From: Candidatus Woesearchaeota archaeon
Lineage (GTDB): Archaea > Nanobdellota > Nanobdellia > Woesearchaeales > SM23-78
Assembly: GCA_016930415.1 (NCBI GenBank)
Contig: JAFGGS010000016.1
Location: 213,340 to 277,339 of the forward strand
Length of the DNA stretch: 64,000 nt
Reading direction: 5' to 3'
Shown here: positions 2,650 through 62,275 of the stretch, one piece after another
Layout: the number at the start of each line of letters is the position of its first letter
Numbering within the stretch: position 1 is the first letter of the stretch
The notes under the pieces: generated by a model
Databases searched by the model: none
What the model saw: only the letters and a program-made list of their open reading frames with translations
Told to the model about the DNA's origin: nothing
Position numbers and translations under genes: made by a program

Positions 2650-3369
2650 TCAGGCCTGGATTATCTTCTTGAGCTTATCCCTGCCAAGCTTCACCATCTT
2701 CTTATCCTTCTCATCCACGTACGCAGCGTCTATCCTCTCGACGTTGAAGTTGCTATCGAGGACCTTCTTGAGAGCCTTGATGCAGAGCTTCAAGCCCTCC
2801 TCAAGAGTCATTCCGTCCTTGTACTCCTTCTGGAGAACCTCTTCTATCTCAGGCTCACCCTCTCCGATCACGCTGGCCTTATACTGGTAGAAGATGCCGG
2901 TAGGATCAGTCTCAAATAGCTTCTTCCCACTCTCATCAACGCCCGCTATCAGCAAGCTCACGCCAAAAGGCCTAAGACCGCCGCTTTGGGTGCACATCTG
3001 CTTGATGTCGCAGATGCCCTTGACGATCGCGAGTGTGTCCACTGGAGAGTCATAGACCACCTTGTTCTGCTGTGCCTTGACCTGCGCCTGCTCTACAAGA
3101 ACGCGGGCGTCGCTTATTATGCCGGCAGCAGTGGCGATTATGTGATCATCAACCTGGAATATCTTCTCTATAGCCTCAGGCACGACCAGCTTGTCTACAA
3201 TCCTCTTGTCAGTCACGAGAAGGACCCCGTCCTTGTAAACCAGGCCAATCGCGGTGTTGCCGAGCCTCACAGTCTTCTTGGCGTACTCCACCTGAAGAAG
3301 CCTGCCGTCAGGACTAAACATTGTAATCGCCCTGTCATAACCCATCATTTGGTGCTGAATCGGTTGCAT
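2650..3369 (-). CDS. psmA: 20S proteasome alpha subunit
   Basis: This subunit forms the outer rings of the archaeal 20S proteasome and gates substrate entry. The N-terminus shows the alpha-subunit signature (GYDRAITMFSPDGRLLQVEYA, of which YDRAITMFSPDGR and LQVEYA are diagnostic), followed by GNTAIGL, the DKR segment, and the RPFGVSLLIAG and DPTGIF motifs. The 239-residue length is normal. A GGAGGATGG site precedes the ATG. The beta subunit is not in the window. Its position between Pop5 and SBDS matches the known archaeal superoperon. Confidence 0.97.
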   Translation of the reverse strand: MQPIQHQMMGYDRAITMFSPDGRLLQVEYAKKTVRLGNTAIGLVYKDGVLLVTDKRIVDKLVVPEAIEKIFQVDDHIIATAAGIISDARVLVEQAQVKAQQNKVVYDSPVDTLAIVKGICDIKQMCTQSGGLRPFGVSLLIAGVDESGKKLFETDPTGIFYQYKASVIGEGEPEIEEVLQKEYKDGMTLEEGLKLCIKALKKVLDSNFNVERIDAAYVDEKDKKMVKLGRDKLKKIIQA

Positions 3370-3464
3370 TTTTTCCCATCCTCCGAACTTTTCTTCTCCT
3401 AATCCCTAAATCCCTATTTTTCCAAATCTAAACTTAAACTTGATGAACATCAAGACAAAAAAAT

Positions 3465-3881
3465 CTATTCCCCCACCATCGCGGCTGCGCGATGGACCAT
3501 GCCACTCACTGCAAGAGTCCGTATCATTACCCTTATCCCTTCAAGCTGCTTAAGCATGACAAAGCAGGTCCTGATAAAGTCTACGAATGCACGATCAACC
3601 CTCAGAAGCCCTCGCTGGAGACCAGGATTGTACTTCACCCGAAGAATCCCTGCCTTCGAGGAGTGGAATACTCCTAAGAGCTCGTTTATCCTAATGATAA
3701 GCTGCCTGTCAGCATCCTTGCCCAAAGGCTTCTCGCTCACGATCTCAAAGGCAATGTATCGCTTCTTCTCGCGCATGCTTGGCTTCAAGGCATTTACCTT
3801 AGGCCTGGGCTTAGAAGCTTTAATGCTTTTCTGAGAAAGCCCTCTTGGATCATTCCTTTTCATGTAGGTCTTAGTTACCAT
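3465..3881 (-). CDS. rnp2: RNase P protein component Pop5 (Rnp2)
   Basis: Pop5 pairs with Rpp30 to support the catalytic domain of RNase P RNA in tRNA 5'-end processing. The core has the RYIAFEIVSE strand, the helix IIRINELLGVFHSSKAGILRV split over residues 63-84, then GLLRV and IRTLAVSGMVHRA. The 138-residue protein carries a basic N-terminal segment of about 35 residues. It is the first gene of the superoperon, with about 95 nt between its start and psmA's stop and a leader of roughly 90 nt from the promoter at 3995-4002. Its partner Rpp21 is at 59795-60118. Confidence 0.9.
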   Translation of the reverse strand: MVTKTYMKRNDPRGLSQKSIKASKPRPKVNALKPSMREKKRYIAFEIVSEKPLGKDADRQLIIRINELLGVFHSSKAGILRVKYNPGLQRGLLRVDRAFVDFIRTCFVMLKQLEGIRVMIRTLAVSGMVHRAAAMVGE

Positions 3882-6473: not shown

Positions 6474-6821
6474 ATGACGCACGAGCCCACCAACAAGGAA
6501 CTCTATGATGAGATGCAGGACTTAAAGAAGCTAGTCAGGCATGTCCTGGACGTCCTCCTAGAGATAAGGACTCTTGAAGAGGAGATCAAGCTCTTCGAAG
6601 GAAGACAAGCGCAAGACGAGGACAAGATAGCGAGGGCAGTCAAGAAGAAGAGATTCACGTCAGTCTTTGAGTGGAAGAACGCGATCTGGGACCGCTGCCC
6701 GAACAAGAAAGAAGAGGTCGGAGCAAAGACAGTCTCCTTCAGGTGCACGCTCCTCAAAGGCCCCTGCATGTTCGAGAAGTGCCCCAGGAACTTTGCAGAC
6801 GACGACCCCTACAACCCGTGA
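6474..6821 (+). CDS. Small coiled-coil protein with a C-terminal four-cysteine cluster
   Basis: Not recognised. Residues 1-65 are strongly charged with a heptad-like leucine pattern, predicting a coiled coil. The C-terminal 45 residues carry four cysteines (C-x~20-C-x6-C-x4-C, in RCPNKK, FRCTLLKGPC and EKCPRNF), suggesting a zinc- or metal-binding knuckle. GAGGAAG precedes the ATG and a TTTAAAAA box lies at about 6416-6423. It is a single gene on the plus strand opposite L11. A coiled coil plus zinc knuckle would fit a nucleic-acid-binding adaptor, but that is inference. Confidence 0.75.
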   Translation: MTHEPTNKELYDEMQDLKKLVRHVLDVLLEIRTLEEEIKLFEGRQAQDEDKIARAVKKKRFTSVFEWKNAIWDRCPNKKEEVGAKTVSFRCTLLKGPCMFEKCPRNFADDDPYNP

Positions 6822-6933: not shown

Positions 6934-7037
6934 GCGGGGGTGCCAGAGTCTGGAAAATGGGCAGGACTTAAGCACTAGAGACAGTGAAGATATCCTGTGG
7001 CTTAGTGCCTACCGGGGTTCAAATCCTCGCCCCCGCA
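6934..7037 (+). tRNA. tRNA-Leu (anticodon UAA) with an intron of about 19 nt
   Basis: The acceptor stem is GCGGGGG (6934-6940) with CCCCCGC (7030-7036) and discriminator A. D stem CCA/TGG, anticodon stem CAGGA (6962-6966) with TCCTG (6993-6997), long variable arm GGC-TTAGT-GCC typical of Leu, and T arm CGGGG-TTCAAAT-CCTCG. The anticodon loop is 26 nt rather than 7. With anticodon TAA at 6969-6971 and the usual position after base 37, the intron is about 6973-6991. It contains a CACT/AGTG hairpin, and CTT/AAG pairing gives a bulge-helix-bulge-like splice substrate. No CCA is encoded. A TATA box (TTATAAAC) lies near 6874. Confidence 0.92.
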
Positions 7038-7097: not shown

Positions 7098-8279
7098 ATG
7101 GCAATGGAGAACCTGCTCATACGATTCCTAGTCCTCATCACCATACTGTTCTTCCTGCCAAAATTCATAAACAAGTTCTACAAGGTGCCATATCCGCTCA
7201 CAGAGATATTCCTGGGGATAATGCTCGGATTATTGGTGCCTAATTTCTTCTACCTCGACGACATGACCAACATCCTCGCGACGCTCGGCATAATAACCCT
7301 TTTTGTCTCAGCAGGCATAGAAGTCGATATTCCTTTCATCACCAAGAACAAGTCCTTCTTCATAGGCAACCTGGCAAGGCACGTGCTCTTGTTCGCAATC
7401 GTAGGCCTTGGCTTTAGCATAGCATTCAAGATGCCGATGCACGAATCCCTGCTGGTCTCGATCGCGCTTACGACGCCTTCGGCAAGCTACATCCTCTCAG
7501 CGCTCAACCACGCGAGCAGGAAAGACAAGATATGGGTGTCCAACAAGGCCATTGCAGGAGAGGTCATCGCACTCATATTATTGATAATACTGCTCAAGAT
7601 AGAGAATCCTCCAGAGCTGCTCCTCACGATCGCGATACTCGCAGTGCTCATATTCGCGCTTCCCTACCTGTTCAAAGTGTTCTTCAAGAGGGTGTTTAGC
7701 GAGCTCGCAGGAACAGAGTTCTCATTCATATTCGTGATAGCGCTGATATCCGCTTACCTGACAGAATACTTAGGAGTCCACTTCCTGATAGGAGCATTCA
7801 TCGCAGGATTCATATCCCGCAGGTTCGTAACGCAGATCGTGAAGGATAAGGATTACAGGCACTTGACCCAGAAGAAGGGAGACGCCATAATAGAGAGCTT
7901 CGGATTCTTCGCGTCCACGTTCATCCCATTCTACTTCTTCTCAATAGGCCTGAAGATCGAATTAAACCTCCTGACATATTACAACGTAGGGATGGCGATT
8001 GGGCTTGCAATAGTCGTGTCCGCGGTCAAGATAATAACAATTGCGATACACAGGAAGGTAAGCATGAAAGAGAGCTTCCTGGACGGCATGAGGATGGGCG
8101 CCATGCTCCTGCCGACGCTCGTCTTCACGTTCGTGATAGCAACGCTCCTTCGAAGGATGGCGATGATAGATGATTCCTTGTTCGCGATACTGATGTTCTA
8201 CGGCATATTCACGTCCATAATGGGACTCCTCCTGCCAAAGCTCATAATACACTGGATGGAGAAGAAGAGCAAGCACTAG
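7098..8279 (+). CDS. CPA2-family cation:proton antiporter (Kef/NapA type)
   Basis: A polytopic membrane protein of 393 residues with about 11-13 hydrophobic segments. The N-terminal third matches the Na/H exchanger fold: PLTEIFLGIMLGLLVPN, then the TLGIITLFVSAGIEVD segment with the acidic residue typical of CPA2 members, and a later LTTPSASYILSAL and HFLIGAFIAGF. It likely exchanges Na or K for protons. The ion cannot be told from sequence. There is no cytoplasmic TrkA (RCK) domain, unlike KefB/C. The ATG lies about 28 nt after an ATTTTTAA promoter element, so the mRNA is probably leaderless. Confidence 0.88.
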   Translation: MAMENLLIRFLVLITILFFLPKFINKFYKVPYPLTEIFLGIMLGLLVPNFFYLDDMTNILATLGIITLFVSAGIEVDIPFITKNKSFFIGNLARHVLLFAIVGLGFSIAFKMPMHESLLVSIALTTPSASYILSALNHASRKDKIWVSNKAIAGEVIALILLIILLKIENPPELLLTIAILAVLIFALPYLFKVFFKRVFSELAGTEFSFIFVIALISAYLTEYLGVHFLIGAFIAGFISRRFVTQIVKDKDYRHLTQKKGDAIIESFGFFASTFIPFYFFSIGLKIELNLLTYYNVGMAIGLAIVVSAVKIITIAIHRKVSMKESFLDGMRMGAMLLPTLVFTFVIATLLRRMAMIDDSLFAILMFYGIFTSIMGLLLPKLIIHWMEKKSKH

Positions 8280-8364
8280 ATGACTGCAGGACAATCTCAT
8301 TCTGATGAGTTTTTTATGCTAAACAAAAGATTTATATAACATTTATCCACTTGGAAGTGGTCTC

Positions 8365-9288
8365 ATGGATGATATTCTCAACCATATAAGAAACAGGAAA
8401 AATCTTGCAGACAGGGTTAGGCTTCTCAATCCAGACCAACTCGATCTAGAACTAGGAGTATACAACACGATAATCGCAGTGGAGGCCATAAGACACCAAA
8501 GGATGATGGCGGACGCAGAAGATGAGTCAAGAGAATACTTGCTTGATGAGAGAAAGAGAACTGATGAGAGGGACCAAAAAATAATGCTTTCGACATTGGA
8601 CGAGGCATTCCCCCAAGGACAAGATCCAGATCCCGGCAGAGTAGTGCCTATGACTAGAGGCATGATGGAACAGTTCTTGAGAGCAGGATACGCCAACAAT
8701 CCCCTTCCAGAACTAGAAATAGAGCTTCAGACCCGAAAAAATCAGACATACAAAGAGATAAAGAGACACGCGAAGAGATACGGGCATCTCCCGACGTTCA
8801 TAATAATCCTAAATTACCTGCCTGAAATCCACGCAAAGCACATCAAGAAAGGGACCGGAATCTTCGAAAACGGATTCTACTATGAAGGCGAGGATAGGCG
8901 TATCCGCAACTGCATAGGCAGGCCATTCCTCAAACCAACAGAATGGATGCTTGACGAGCTTTATAGCATATCCCTTGAAGACAGCGCAGTCACAGTCAAC
9001 AGTCAAGGGCTCATCTCAGGGACCAACGCAGAAATAGATGACCAGGCAAATGAAAACAATACTGATGAAGACAAGCGCTCATTAAACGAGAGGATAGGTC
9101 TTCTGGCCGGCGGAAACACGCGCCAACACGCAGCTTATGAAGGATCAGGACTCATGAAAGGAACAATAATATATACGCTTGGCGAATCAGGGTATATCCG
9201 CAGATTCTGCGAGAAAGAACTCACCCAATCATCACACGCTGGAGAAGAGCATAATCTGATGCTAAGATACCTTGAGGCACGGCCTTAG
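8365..9288 (+). CDS. Diadenylate cyclase (DacZ/DisA_N)-like protein with altered active-site motifs
   Basis: Residues about 130-285 resemble the DAC domain that makes cyclic di-AMP. Before the core, KRYGHLPTFIIIL parallels the strand leading into the family fold. LEDSAVTVNSQGLIS (204-218) corresponds to the DGA motif region, and GGNTRQHAAYEG (249-260) followed by SGYIRRF (275-281) corresponds to the G-x-RHR/RHHAA motif and the strand after it. DGA reads DSA, and RHR reads RQH, so activity is uncertain. The first 125 residues are helical, acidic and unrecognised. ATG at 8365 follows a GATTTATATAAC promoter by about 30 nt. The assignment rests on motif reading by eye. Confidence 0.6.
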   Translation: MDDILNHIRNRKNLADRVRLLNPDQLDLELGVYNTIIAVEAIRHQRMMADAEDESREYLLDERKRTDERDQKIMLSTLDEAFPQGQDPDPGRVVPMTRGMMEQFLRAGYANNPLPELEIELQTRKNQTYKEIKRHAKRYGHLPTFIIILNYLPEIHAKHIKKGTGIFENGFYYEGEDRRIRNCIGRPFLKPTEWMLDELYSISLEDSAVTVNSQGLISGTNAEIDDQANENNTDEDKRSLNERIGLLAGGNTRQHAAYEGSGLMKGTIIYTLGESGYIRRFCEKELTQSSHAGEEHNLMLRYLEARP

Positions 9289-9382: not shown

Positions 9383-9739
9383 ATGAATGGGGAAAACATC
9401 GAGGAGATCAATAATCCTAAGGATCAGACCATAACTGTCAAGACGACTAGCGTCCTTCTTAGCAGGATGGTAAAGGGCAGCAAGGATGATGATTTCAAGA
9501 CTGCTATATTCAGGTTCTTCAGCAGGAACAACCCCCATCTTCAGGAAGGCTTCCCTAACAAGATCATCCAGTACACCAACACCGAGAAGGTCAGGATCAT
9601 GGGCCTCAACGTCTCATACTACCTTGAGGGGAACGATATCGTAATCAACGACCTGGAAGAGGTCACCTTAAGCCATGAGGGCACCAAGATATTCCTGACT
9701 GCAAAGCAAAAGTCAGTCCAAAGAAGGCAGCAGGGATAG
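9383..9739 (+). CDS. Unrecognised 118-residue protein
   Basis: No family recognised. The middle (residues 40-95) alternates short strands and could form a small beta-sheet domain. The C-terminus (AKQKSVQRRQQG) is basic. No membrane segment or cysteine pattern is seen. A CATAAATAC element 24-32 nt before the ATG suggests leaderless expression. An in-frame ATG two codons on (MGENIEE would need a different frame) does not compete. It is isolated, between the DAC-like gene and a convergent gene ending at 9756. Confidence 0.65.
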   Translation: MNGENIEEINNPKDQTITVKTTSVLLSRMVKGSKDDDFKTAIFRFFSRNNPHLQEGFPNKIIQYTNTEKVRIMGLNVSYYLEGNDIVINDLEEVTLSHEGTKIFLTAKQKSVQRRQQG

Positions 9740-21372: not shown

Positions 21373-22014
21373 ATGCAAAACATGAAAAAAAAGATAATAG
21401 TGGCTCCAGTAGGAGACTACATGGAAGACTTATTCGTAGGGATAAGGGAATTCCCGACCGAGAAAGTCATACTCCTAGCGCCCAAAGACAGGATGAAAGA
21501 AGCAGAAGAGACAAAGAAGAGCCTAGACAAGTTCAAGGTCCCAACCGAAATAAAGCAGATAGACGGCTTCATATGGGAAGAGATATTCAAGGAAGTAGCC
21601 AACATAAAGAAGATAGAAGGAGGAGACGTCCTAATAAACGTGTCGACAGGAGATAGGGAGAGCAGATGCGCAGCGACAAGCGCGGCGTTTGTGAACGGCC
21701 TTAAAGCATTCGCGATAAAAGACAACGAGCCAATGATGCTGCCTGTACTCAAGTTCTCATACTACACTCTCCTCACCAACAAGAAGATGGGAATACTAAA
21801 GACGCTATTCACGAAGAAGGACTGCTGCGCAAGCCTCGAAGACCTAAGCAAGCAGACTAAGATGAGCCTTCCACTCATCTCATACCACATAAACGGCACG
21901 CTCAAAAGCGAAGGCTTAAAGCAGATGGGACTAGTCGAGACAAGAGAAGAGAAAGGAAAGATAAGGATAAACCTATCCTTCCTAGGACGAATGATAGTTA
22001 AGGGGTATGTCTAA
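21373..22014 (+). CDS. CARF-like sensor fused to a winged-helix DNA-binding domain
   Basis: Residues about 6-120 form a Rossmann-like domain of the CARF type: KIIVAPVGDY at the start and the ligand-loop LINVSTGDRESRCAATSAA at about 87-105 (compare the N-x-T/S-G-G/D loop of CARF proteins). Residues about 135-205 are a winged helix (LSKQTKMSLPLISYHINGTLKSEG in two halves, then LVETREEKGKIRI). This matches Csa3-like or DUF6293-like archaeal regulators that sense a small nucleotide. AGGTGAT precedes the ATG and a CGAAAGATTTATTAA promoter lies at 21284-21299. No CRISPR genes are near. It overlaps the following protease gene by 8 nt. Confidence 0.72.
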   Translation: MQNMKKKIIVAPVGDYMEDLFVGIREFPTEKVILLAPKDRMKEAEETKKSLDKFKVPTEIKQIDGFIWEEIFKEVANIKKIEGGDVLINVSTGDRESRCAATSAAFVNGLKAFAIKDNEPMMLPVLKFSYYTLLTNKKMGILKTLFTKKDCCASLEDLSKQTKMSLPLISYHINGTLKSEGLKQMGLVETREEKGKIRINLSFLGRMIVKGYV

Positions 22015-61684: not shown

Positions 61685-62275
61685 ATGATAGAGATAGCCC
61701 GCGGAGCAGAGGCAGTCATCTACGAGGATGCCGCTAAGGGAGTCGTCGTCAAGGACCGTGTTCGCAAAGGCTACCGCCACCCCGAGCTTGACGCCGAGCT
61801 TCGAAGCCAGCGCACCAAGCGCGAGGCTAACCTTCTCAAGAAACTCAAGATACCACGCCCGAATCTAGTGGAATCTGACGGTAAGGAAAGGATTGTGATG
61901 GAGAGGATAAAAGGAGAGAAGGTCCGCGAAGCCCTGGACAAGGATCCGAAGCTAGCGAGGAAGATCGGCTCGATCGTCGCGCAGATGCACGACTCGCACG
62001 TCATCCACGGCGACCTCACCACGAGCAACATACTCATAGGCAAGGACGGAAACTTAGTTTTCATAGACTTCGGCCTCTCGTTCCAAAGCCACAAGGTAGA
62101 GGACAAGGCAGTCGACATCCACTTGTTCAAGCAAGCGCTTGAGAGCAAGCACTTCAAGGTCTACGACGAGGCATTGAAGGAGTTCCTAGCAGGCTACAGG
62201 AAAGCAGAGGGTTATGGCGAGATAATGAAGCGGCTCGAGGAAGTGGAGGCGCGCGGAAGGTATAGGAAGGGATGA
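61685..62275 (+). CDS. bud32: KEOPS kinase Bud32
   Basis: Small atypical kinase of the KEOPS complex, which completes t6A on tRNA with Kae1. GAEAVIYEDAAKGVVVKDR (lysine region), KREANLLKKL, IVMERIKGEKV, HGDLTTSNIL (catalytic D) and VFIDFGLSFQS (metal D) are all present in a 196-residue protein of normal size, ending in a basic tail. Not fused to Kae1 here. A TGTTAAAAATAGG promoter lies about 25-35 nt before the ATG. It is followed after four bases by a secreted protease gene. Confidence 0.93.
   Translation: MIEIARGAEAVIYEDAAKGVVVKDRVRKGYRHPELDAELRSQRTKREANLLKKLKIPRPNLVESDGKERIVMERIKGEKVREALDKDPKLARKIGSIVAQMHDSHVIHGDLTTSNILIGKDGNLVFIDFGLSFQSHKVEDKAVDIHLFKQALESKHFKVYDEALKEFLAGYRKAEGYGEIMKRLEEVEARGRYRKG

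Follow-up and report, generated by a model that had tools for sequence, protein, structure and literature searches.

The window, a stretch of 64,000 nucleotides from a Candidatus Woesearchaeota archaeon with a small genome, holds at positions 8365..9288 (+) a gene for a protein of 307 aa, with an ATG start and a frame that is open throughout. Its translation contains DSAVTV, TRQHAA and GYIRRF, in the order and at the place where the earlier note had read them. No Pfam family matches the protein at E up to 10, no NCBIfam family, the DacZ equivalog included, does so at E up to 1, and neither PADLOC nor PHROGs returned a match, so that an annotation pipeline would probably label the gene hypothetical. 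We class the protein as DAC-like, rather than as a diadenylate cyclase (DAC), because two motifs that define these enzymes, DGA and RHR, read differently in it.

On the same strand, 85 bases upstream, lies the gene of a CPA2-type monovalent cation:proton antiporter (7098..8279, +), which consists of the transmembrane part only (PF00999, 103.3 bits; 11 hydrophobic segments). It scored 75.6 bits against TIGR00932, below the cut-off of 238.3, and Pfam revealed no RCK domain in it. Exactly these two genes stand between a tRNA-Leu(UAA) with an intron (6934..7037, +; introns-allowed ARAGORN run and Rfam) and a conserved right-flank gene of 118 aa (9383..9739, +), which has homologues in four of six same-genus stretches. 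The left flank is formed by a conserved gene of 115 aa (6474..6821, +; homologues in five of the six). The default run of ARAGORN missed this tRNA. Two sister genomes show that the place taken by the antiporter and the DAC-like gene behind the tRNA is a variable slot: in one (G006) the right-flank homologue follows the same tRNA within 5 bases and the slot is empty, and in the other (G005) a single unrelated gene sits between the tRNA and the right-flank homologue. The other four sister stretches are arranged differently, and no tRNA-Leu was found there.

TATA-like elements precede the ATG of both genes by 37-39 bases, and the two are therefore probably transcribed separately, each from its own promoter. 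For the DAC-like gene this is an archaeal BRE/TATA-like element at 8326..8338 (+), 39 bases before the ATG; a loose BRE/TATA pattern occurs within 60 bases upstream of 10 of the 61 ORFs in the window. GC3 is 0.698 in the antiporter gene and 0.484 in the DAC-like gene; only four of the 48 ORFs, whose mean is 0.616 with an s.d. of 0.070, lie lower. Judging by this difference, the two genes need not have arrived together. Within the genus, the only antiporter homologue is a broken copy elsewhere in G006, and a tblastn search of the antiporter against all collected loci gave no second pairing with a DAC-like gene.

The window protein is a true, very divergent homologue of diadenylate cyclases. A single-sequence search of 352 genomes of the order retrieved four clear relatives (L002-L005; 27-33% identity, E 1e-9 to 5e-15), and its identity to any relative is at most 34%. 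For two of the four, PF02457 gives a weak match (E 0.017 and 0.022). A profile of the window protein and these four relatives (A1, five sequences) matched in 14 of 378 genomes of the class, the protein's own genome included, and it reached the genomes of the f102 group at E of about 1e-15 to 1e-20, four of which (G366, G503, G519 and G556) also exceed the PF02457 cut-off. PF02457 is thus reached above its cut-off through a chain of relatives, the window protein itself staying below the gathering score. Searched against PDB sequences, a wider profile of 20 rows (A4) gave 20 matches, 14 of them DACs, among these all of the first 8 (best E 6.7e-4). In a shuffle control, a profile of 19 relatives without the window protein scored it at 82.2 bits and composition-matched shuffles at no more than 11.5 bits (743 of 1000 scored); when the profile was restricted to the 14 more distant rows, the protein scored 51.9 bits against 10.8 for shuffles (682 of 1000 scored).

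The AlphaFold model of the protein has the alpha/beta fold of a DAC. AlphaFold2 reached a mean pLDDT of 71.5 with a five-row alignment and 83.6 with 20 rows, where most blocks of the DAC core lay at 90-96. With the five-row model, the first 24 rows of a fold search were DACs, row 25 following at E 0.26, and structural alignment placed 40 DAC rows at Z 9.1-11.6 before a drop to 4.5. With the 20-row model, all 50 Foldseek rows among the PDB matches listed were DACs (best E 2.3e-5). The first 40 rows of VIA-align were also all DACs (Z 9.6-12.2, rmsd 3.1-4.8, 129-137 aligned), with the next row at Z 2.8, in a list from which the absence of non-DAC families excludes nothing. One of the DAC rows, 2fb5, carries the title "hypothetical" and is a CdaS homologue according to an excerpt of PMC8573169. 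The homology proposed in the earlier note, which hung on the presence of a DAC fold, thus survives in the fold, the profile chain and the structure matches.

Three parts can be told apart along the chain: conserved N-terminal helices, delimited by alignment (residues 1-46; 8365..8502, +), a helical insertion that is longer than in the closest relatives (residues about 47-139; 8503..8781, +), and the DAC alpha/beta domain (residues about 140-290; 8782..9234, +). The model places helices at residues 2-21, 23-81, 98-109 and 115-139 and the first strand at 145. A GHxP motif stands at residue 140, compared with 73, 79, 93 and 128 in the four closest relatives. The structural alignments with DACs already set in at model residues 13-24, which suggests that the N-terminal helix proper to the DAC domain lies within the first ~45 residues. 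A helical N-terminus of 125 residues, unlike that of DacZ, had been described before; it is indeed helical in the model, and its first ~45 residues appear to belong in part to the DAC domain itself. The remainder up to residue 139, an insertion of variable length, would probably form a coiled coil that serves oligomerisation. In the model the DAC domain ends ~17 residues before the C-terminus and is followed by a single helix. No transmembrane segment was found in the protein (0 hydrophobic segments above threshold).

An alignment of 24 DAC-like domains, which the profiles had retrieved, and 47 canonical ones from DACs of the class was the basis of a maximum-likelihood tree on 96 columns; these are few columns, leaving many forks open, and the midpoint root serves for drawing only. 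The canonical controls came from the 30 best PF02457 loci (27 used, three shorter ones dropped) and from 20 loci hand-picked across genome families, and are thus not a random sample. A branch with support of 97/99 separates 23 DAC-like rows from the 47 canonical rows. One profile match, L026 (G601), groups with the canonical DACs and is left outside the 23, and a member from G203 (L144), which turned up later, is absent from the tree. The DAC-like subfamily so delimited comprises 23 domains from 22 genomes of the class. The window protein groups with L002-L005 and L015 in 100% of 200 bootstrap trees, ungrouped rows not being counted; the fork itself has support of 87/83, and the branch of the window row is long (1.76). 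The separate clade supports the placement of the window protein in a new DAC-like subfamily apart from canonical DACs, as previously suggested. That the motif likeness is chance and the protein no relative of DACs, as the lack of a direct Pfam match might be taken to mean, is contradicted by the fold, the profile chain and the tree and ruled out by the shuffle control together with the fold matches, so that hardly any credence is left for it.

The named members of the subfamily are Nanoarchaeota/Woesearchaeota MAGs, and in a phylum-wide sample the 9 matched genomes (out of 197) all fall within the same class. The distribution is patchy, with members in 11 of 352 genomes of the order. Among the six sister genomes of the genus only G006 has one, at another locus and with the motifs DGA and SRH. 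Members of the subfamily vary in architecture and in motifs. In G146, one protein (L072:6144-7499, -) carries two tandem DAC-like domains, the first with EDGA, CRH and SE and the second with EDGA and no RH, and resembles a single-chain pseudo-dimer. Another member, in G471 (L025, 1030-1752, +), is strongly degenerate, with the D, R and E positions lost, and is a candidate pseudo-cyclase.

The f102 group (L018-L024) belongs to the same 97/99 clade, and its members act as intermediates that link the window protein to PF02457. They keep the canonical motifs (DGA, TRHT, LSEE), unlike the window protein, and have the gene of an Lrp/AsnC-type regulator as neighbour. Under the midpoint root, canonical archaeal DACs of about 280-400 aa lie on the side from which the subfamily branches. 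Like the window protein, DacZ/CdaZ (H. volcanii HVO_1660, M. jannaschii CdaZ) are archaeal and soluble and have a C-terminal DAC domain. The window protein differs from them in lacking the NCBIfam DacZ match, in its altered DGA and RHR, and apparently in its N-terminal part, for which the full-length model gives only helices before residue 145, where PMC6741144 has a PK_C-like alpha/beta N-terminus. The DisA proteins of T. maritima, M. tuberculosis and M. smegmatis share the DAC fold and head the structural matches, with Z up to 12.2, whereas the window protein has no C-terminal linker and HhH region, ends about 17 residues past the DAC domain and has altered motifs. The fold is also common to the bacterial CdaA/DacA, CdaS and CdaM (Z 9.6-11.4), from which the window protein differs by its altered motifs and by having no transmembrane segment. 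In the excerpts of literature searched, little was found on c-di-AMP in DPANN archaea, and no treatment of a DPANN DAC.

At the active site, the 47 canonical rows have D in 47/47, G in 47/47, R or K in 47/47, H in 47/47 and E in 39/47, and the 23 subfamily rows have D in 22, G in 16, R in 21, H in 20 and E in 20. The residue after the H of RHR is free in canonical DACs (K, R, A, L, Q or S), so the motif is in practice R/K-H-any, and the RHH of relatives is no departure. In the window protein the DGA position is D206-S207-A208 (8980..8988, +; E205-D206-S207-A208, within DSAVTV), which retains D and A, and the RHR position is T252-R253-Q254-H255 (9118..9129, +; TRQHAA), with Q in place of H. G273-E274 (9181..9186, +) corresponds to S-E of the canonical SEE/SER motif, with the E kept, and G273-E274-S275-G276-Y277-I278-R279-R280-F281 covers the GYIRRF motif. 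The true departures are therefore G to S (S207) and H to Q (Q254), and D206, R253 and E274 are kept. A reading of RQH as a shifted RH-x with one inserted residue was rejected, as the alignment with the close relatives is gap-free from R253 to S261. The DGA glycine is gone in all six rows of the window protein's clade (N in four, L in one, S in one); H is kept in the other five, and Q is unique to the window protein there. RQ is also found in L064, another row of the subfamily.

Published mutants bear on both positions. In M. tuberculosis DacA, G73A stays active and RHR to AAA is inactive (excerpts of PMC3328451), and CdaS is inactivated by DGA to AAA or by RHR to AAA (a passage of PMC4568413). 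A DisA with natural DRA and RHL variants is described in PMC10086821, in an excerpt that does not state its activity. The excerpts of literature searched held no test of the RHR histidine alone, nor do those of PMC11066881, PMC10167629 and PMC8944544 settle its role. Thus S207 is probably harmless, and Q254 is the real question. The natural motif states of the subfamily (DGA, DNA, DLA and DSA; RHT, RHH, RQH and RQS) form a ready series for studying what c-di-AMP synthesis needs at the active site.

Judged from the residues, it is about an even bet whether the window protein makes c-di-AMP. The case for an active synthase, which would tolerate DSA and RQH and serve the archaeon as its sole DAC in a DacZ-like role, comes to a shade under an even chance. 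D206, R253 and E274 are kept despite an identity to relatives that is so low, the glycine is dispensable in DacA, DRA and RHL occur naturally in a DisA, and no second DAC could be detected in the genome. A search of the protein's own genome (91% complete) with PF02457, which misses the window gene too, gave no match, so the check for a canonical dacZ, which had been proposed earlier, found none, and the family profile matched the window gene alone. Laboratory E. coli, one of the 14 control genomes, falls outside the 11 that have a DAC. The long branch of the window protein speaks against synthesis, as does the change to Q at a position where H is found in 47/47 canonical and 20/23 subfamily rows.

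Somewhat below an even chance stands a pseudo-cyclase, in which catalysis would be lost and the DAC fold kept as a regulator that binds ATP or c-di-AMP, for example as a partner of the antiporter. The H to Q and G to S changes fit such a loss, and so does the RQ of L064. Other subfamily rows are plainly degenerate, namely L025 and, in the G146 tandem protein, the second domain, which has lost R and H; both look cyclase-dead. An antiporter without its own RCK domain, directly adjacent, would offer a partner. In the window protein, however, all binding residues except H are kept, and a sensor of c-di-AMP would have no source in a cell where no other DAC was found (9% of the genome is missing). 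With this subfamily one can ask whether pseudo-cyclases with a DAC fold exist; the literature searched gave no match for a diadenylate cyclase as pseudoenzyme.

The explanation we favour, and hold to be rather probable, is that a divergent protein with a DAC fold, from a DPANN-archaeal subfamily, acts here in nucleotide signalling and tunes cation transport; a role in the nucleotide signalling of ion homeostasis is probable. ATP would be bound at the face of the DAC domain, by analogy with DisA and CdaA, and two subunits may meet head to head, held by the helical N-terminal part. The nucleotide state, whether set by synthesis of c-di-AMP from two ATP or by binding of ATP/c-di-AMP, would then tune cation transport, most likely via the adjacent antiporter. 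The gene order is suggestive of such a link. Moreover, a K+-channel-like gene (Ion_trans_2, 52.2 bits) lies directly upstream of the DAC-like gene of G438, a member of the same clade, on the same strand and at about 215 bases. The dacZ gene of H. volcanii shares an operon with mscS2, an ion-transport gene (PMC6741144, section 3.1). According to a passage of PMC5575661, RCK_C domains mediate the action of c-di-AMP on KtrA and on the cation/proton antiporter CpaA. Against the favoured explanation, no TrkA_C (RCK_C) domain was found in the protein's own genome at E up to 0.001, and the antiporter carries none. c-di-AMP is known to act in osmoregulation, and a location next to genes for cation transport would carry this role over to the present lineage.

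It is a real possibility, short of probable, that the slot carries the DAC-like gene and the antiporter as passengers without relation to each other and that the protein's role is unconnected to cation transport. Sister genomes carry other, unrelated genes between the flank genes, GC3 differs between the two, and most subfamily loci have no cation-transport neighbour: such neighbours occur at 2 of 22 subfamily loci and 2 of 6 in the clade, a pattern that was noticed post hoc, and none was seen at the other loci among the flanks scanned, part of which were Pfam-checked. Against mere co-residence stand the common strand and the exact pair between tRNA and right flank, the independent K+-channel neighbour within the same clade, and the dacZ-mscS2 operon.

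A more specific version of the regulatory reading is unlikely: a DAC fold turned receptor, that is, a cyclase-dead subunit that would bind ATP or c-di-AMP and directly gate the RCK-less CPA2 antiporter. It would belong to the several degenerate forms that a rapidly evolving DPANN subfamily of DACs has produced, among them the single-chain tandem with one intact and one motif-less DAC domain. An archaeon without a DAC of its own might in this way read c-di-AMP from a partner cell. Among known partners of c-di-AMP, the DHHA1 domain has two matches in the protein's own genome and is present in 14 of 14 control genomes, and is therefore uninformative.

A viral or defence gene was also considered for the window protein and rejected, as viral contigs and phage records held no relatives of it, BFVD gave no match at E up to 0.001, and PADLOC and PHROGs were likewise negative.

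The Lrp/AsnC-type regulator was examined as a fixed partner of the subfamily and discarded. Of the 22 subfamily loci, 10 have its gene directly beside the DAC-like one, with the domains checked at three; seven of the ten belong to one genus, and it is absent beside the window gene. Conversely, 3 of its 20 best orthologues (L128, L144 and L146) have a DAC-like neighbour, and a relative of the regulator is present in 201 of 352 genomes. At L080-L086, L072, L077 and L088 its gene is oriented divergently to the DAC-like gene and encodes a protein of ~327 aa, with two HTH stretches around a ligand-binding domain. At L130 (G122), a 42% relative of the K+ channel of G438 (2835-3653) adjoins an orthologue of this regulator.

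The tie to a "CARF-type regulator", through which nucleotide signalling had been suspected in this genome, is not supported: the gene in question lies 12 kb from the DAC-like gene, and nothing connects the two. It is probably the one at 21373-22014 (+), which encodes an HFX_2341_N (PF19810) protein and is directly followed by an M50 peptidase-like gene. Further along the window, 61685-62275 (+) encodes a small protein (196 aa) that resembles ABC1/RIO-type protein kinases and may be a kinase core on its own.
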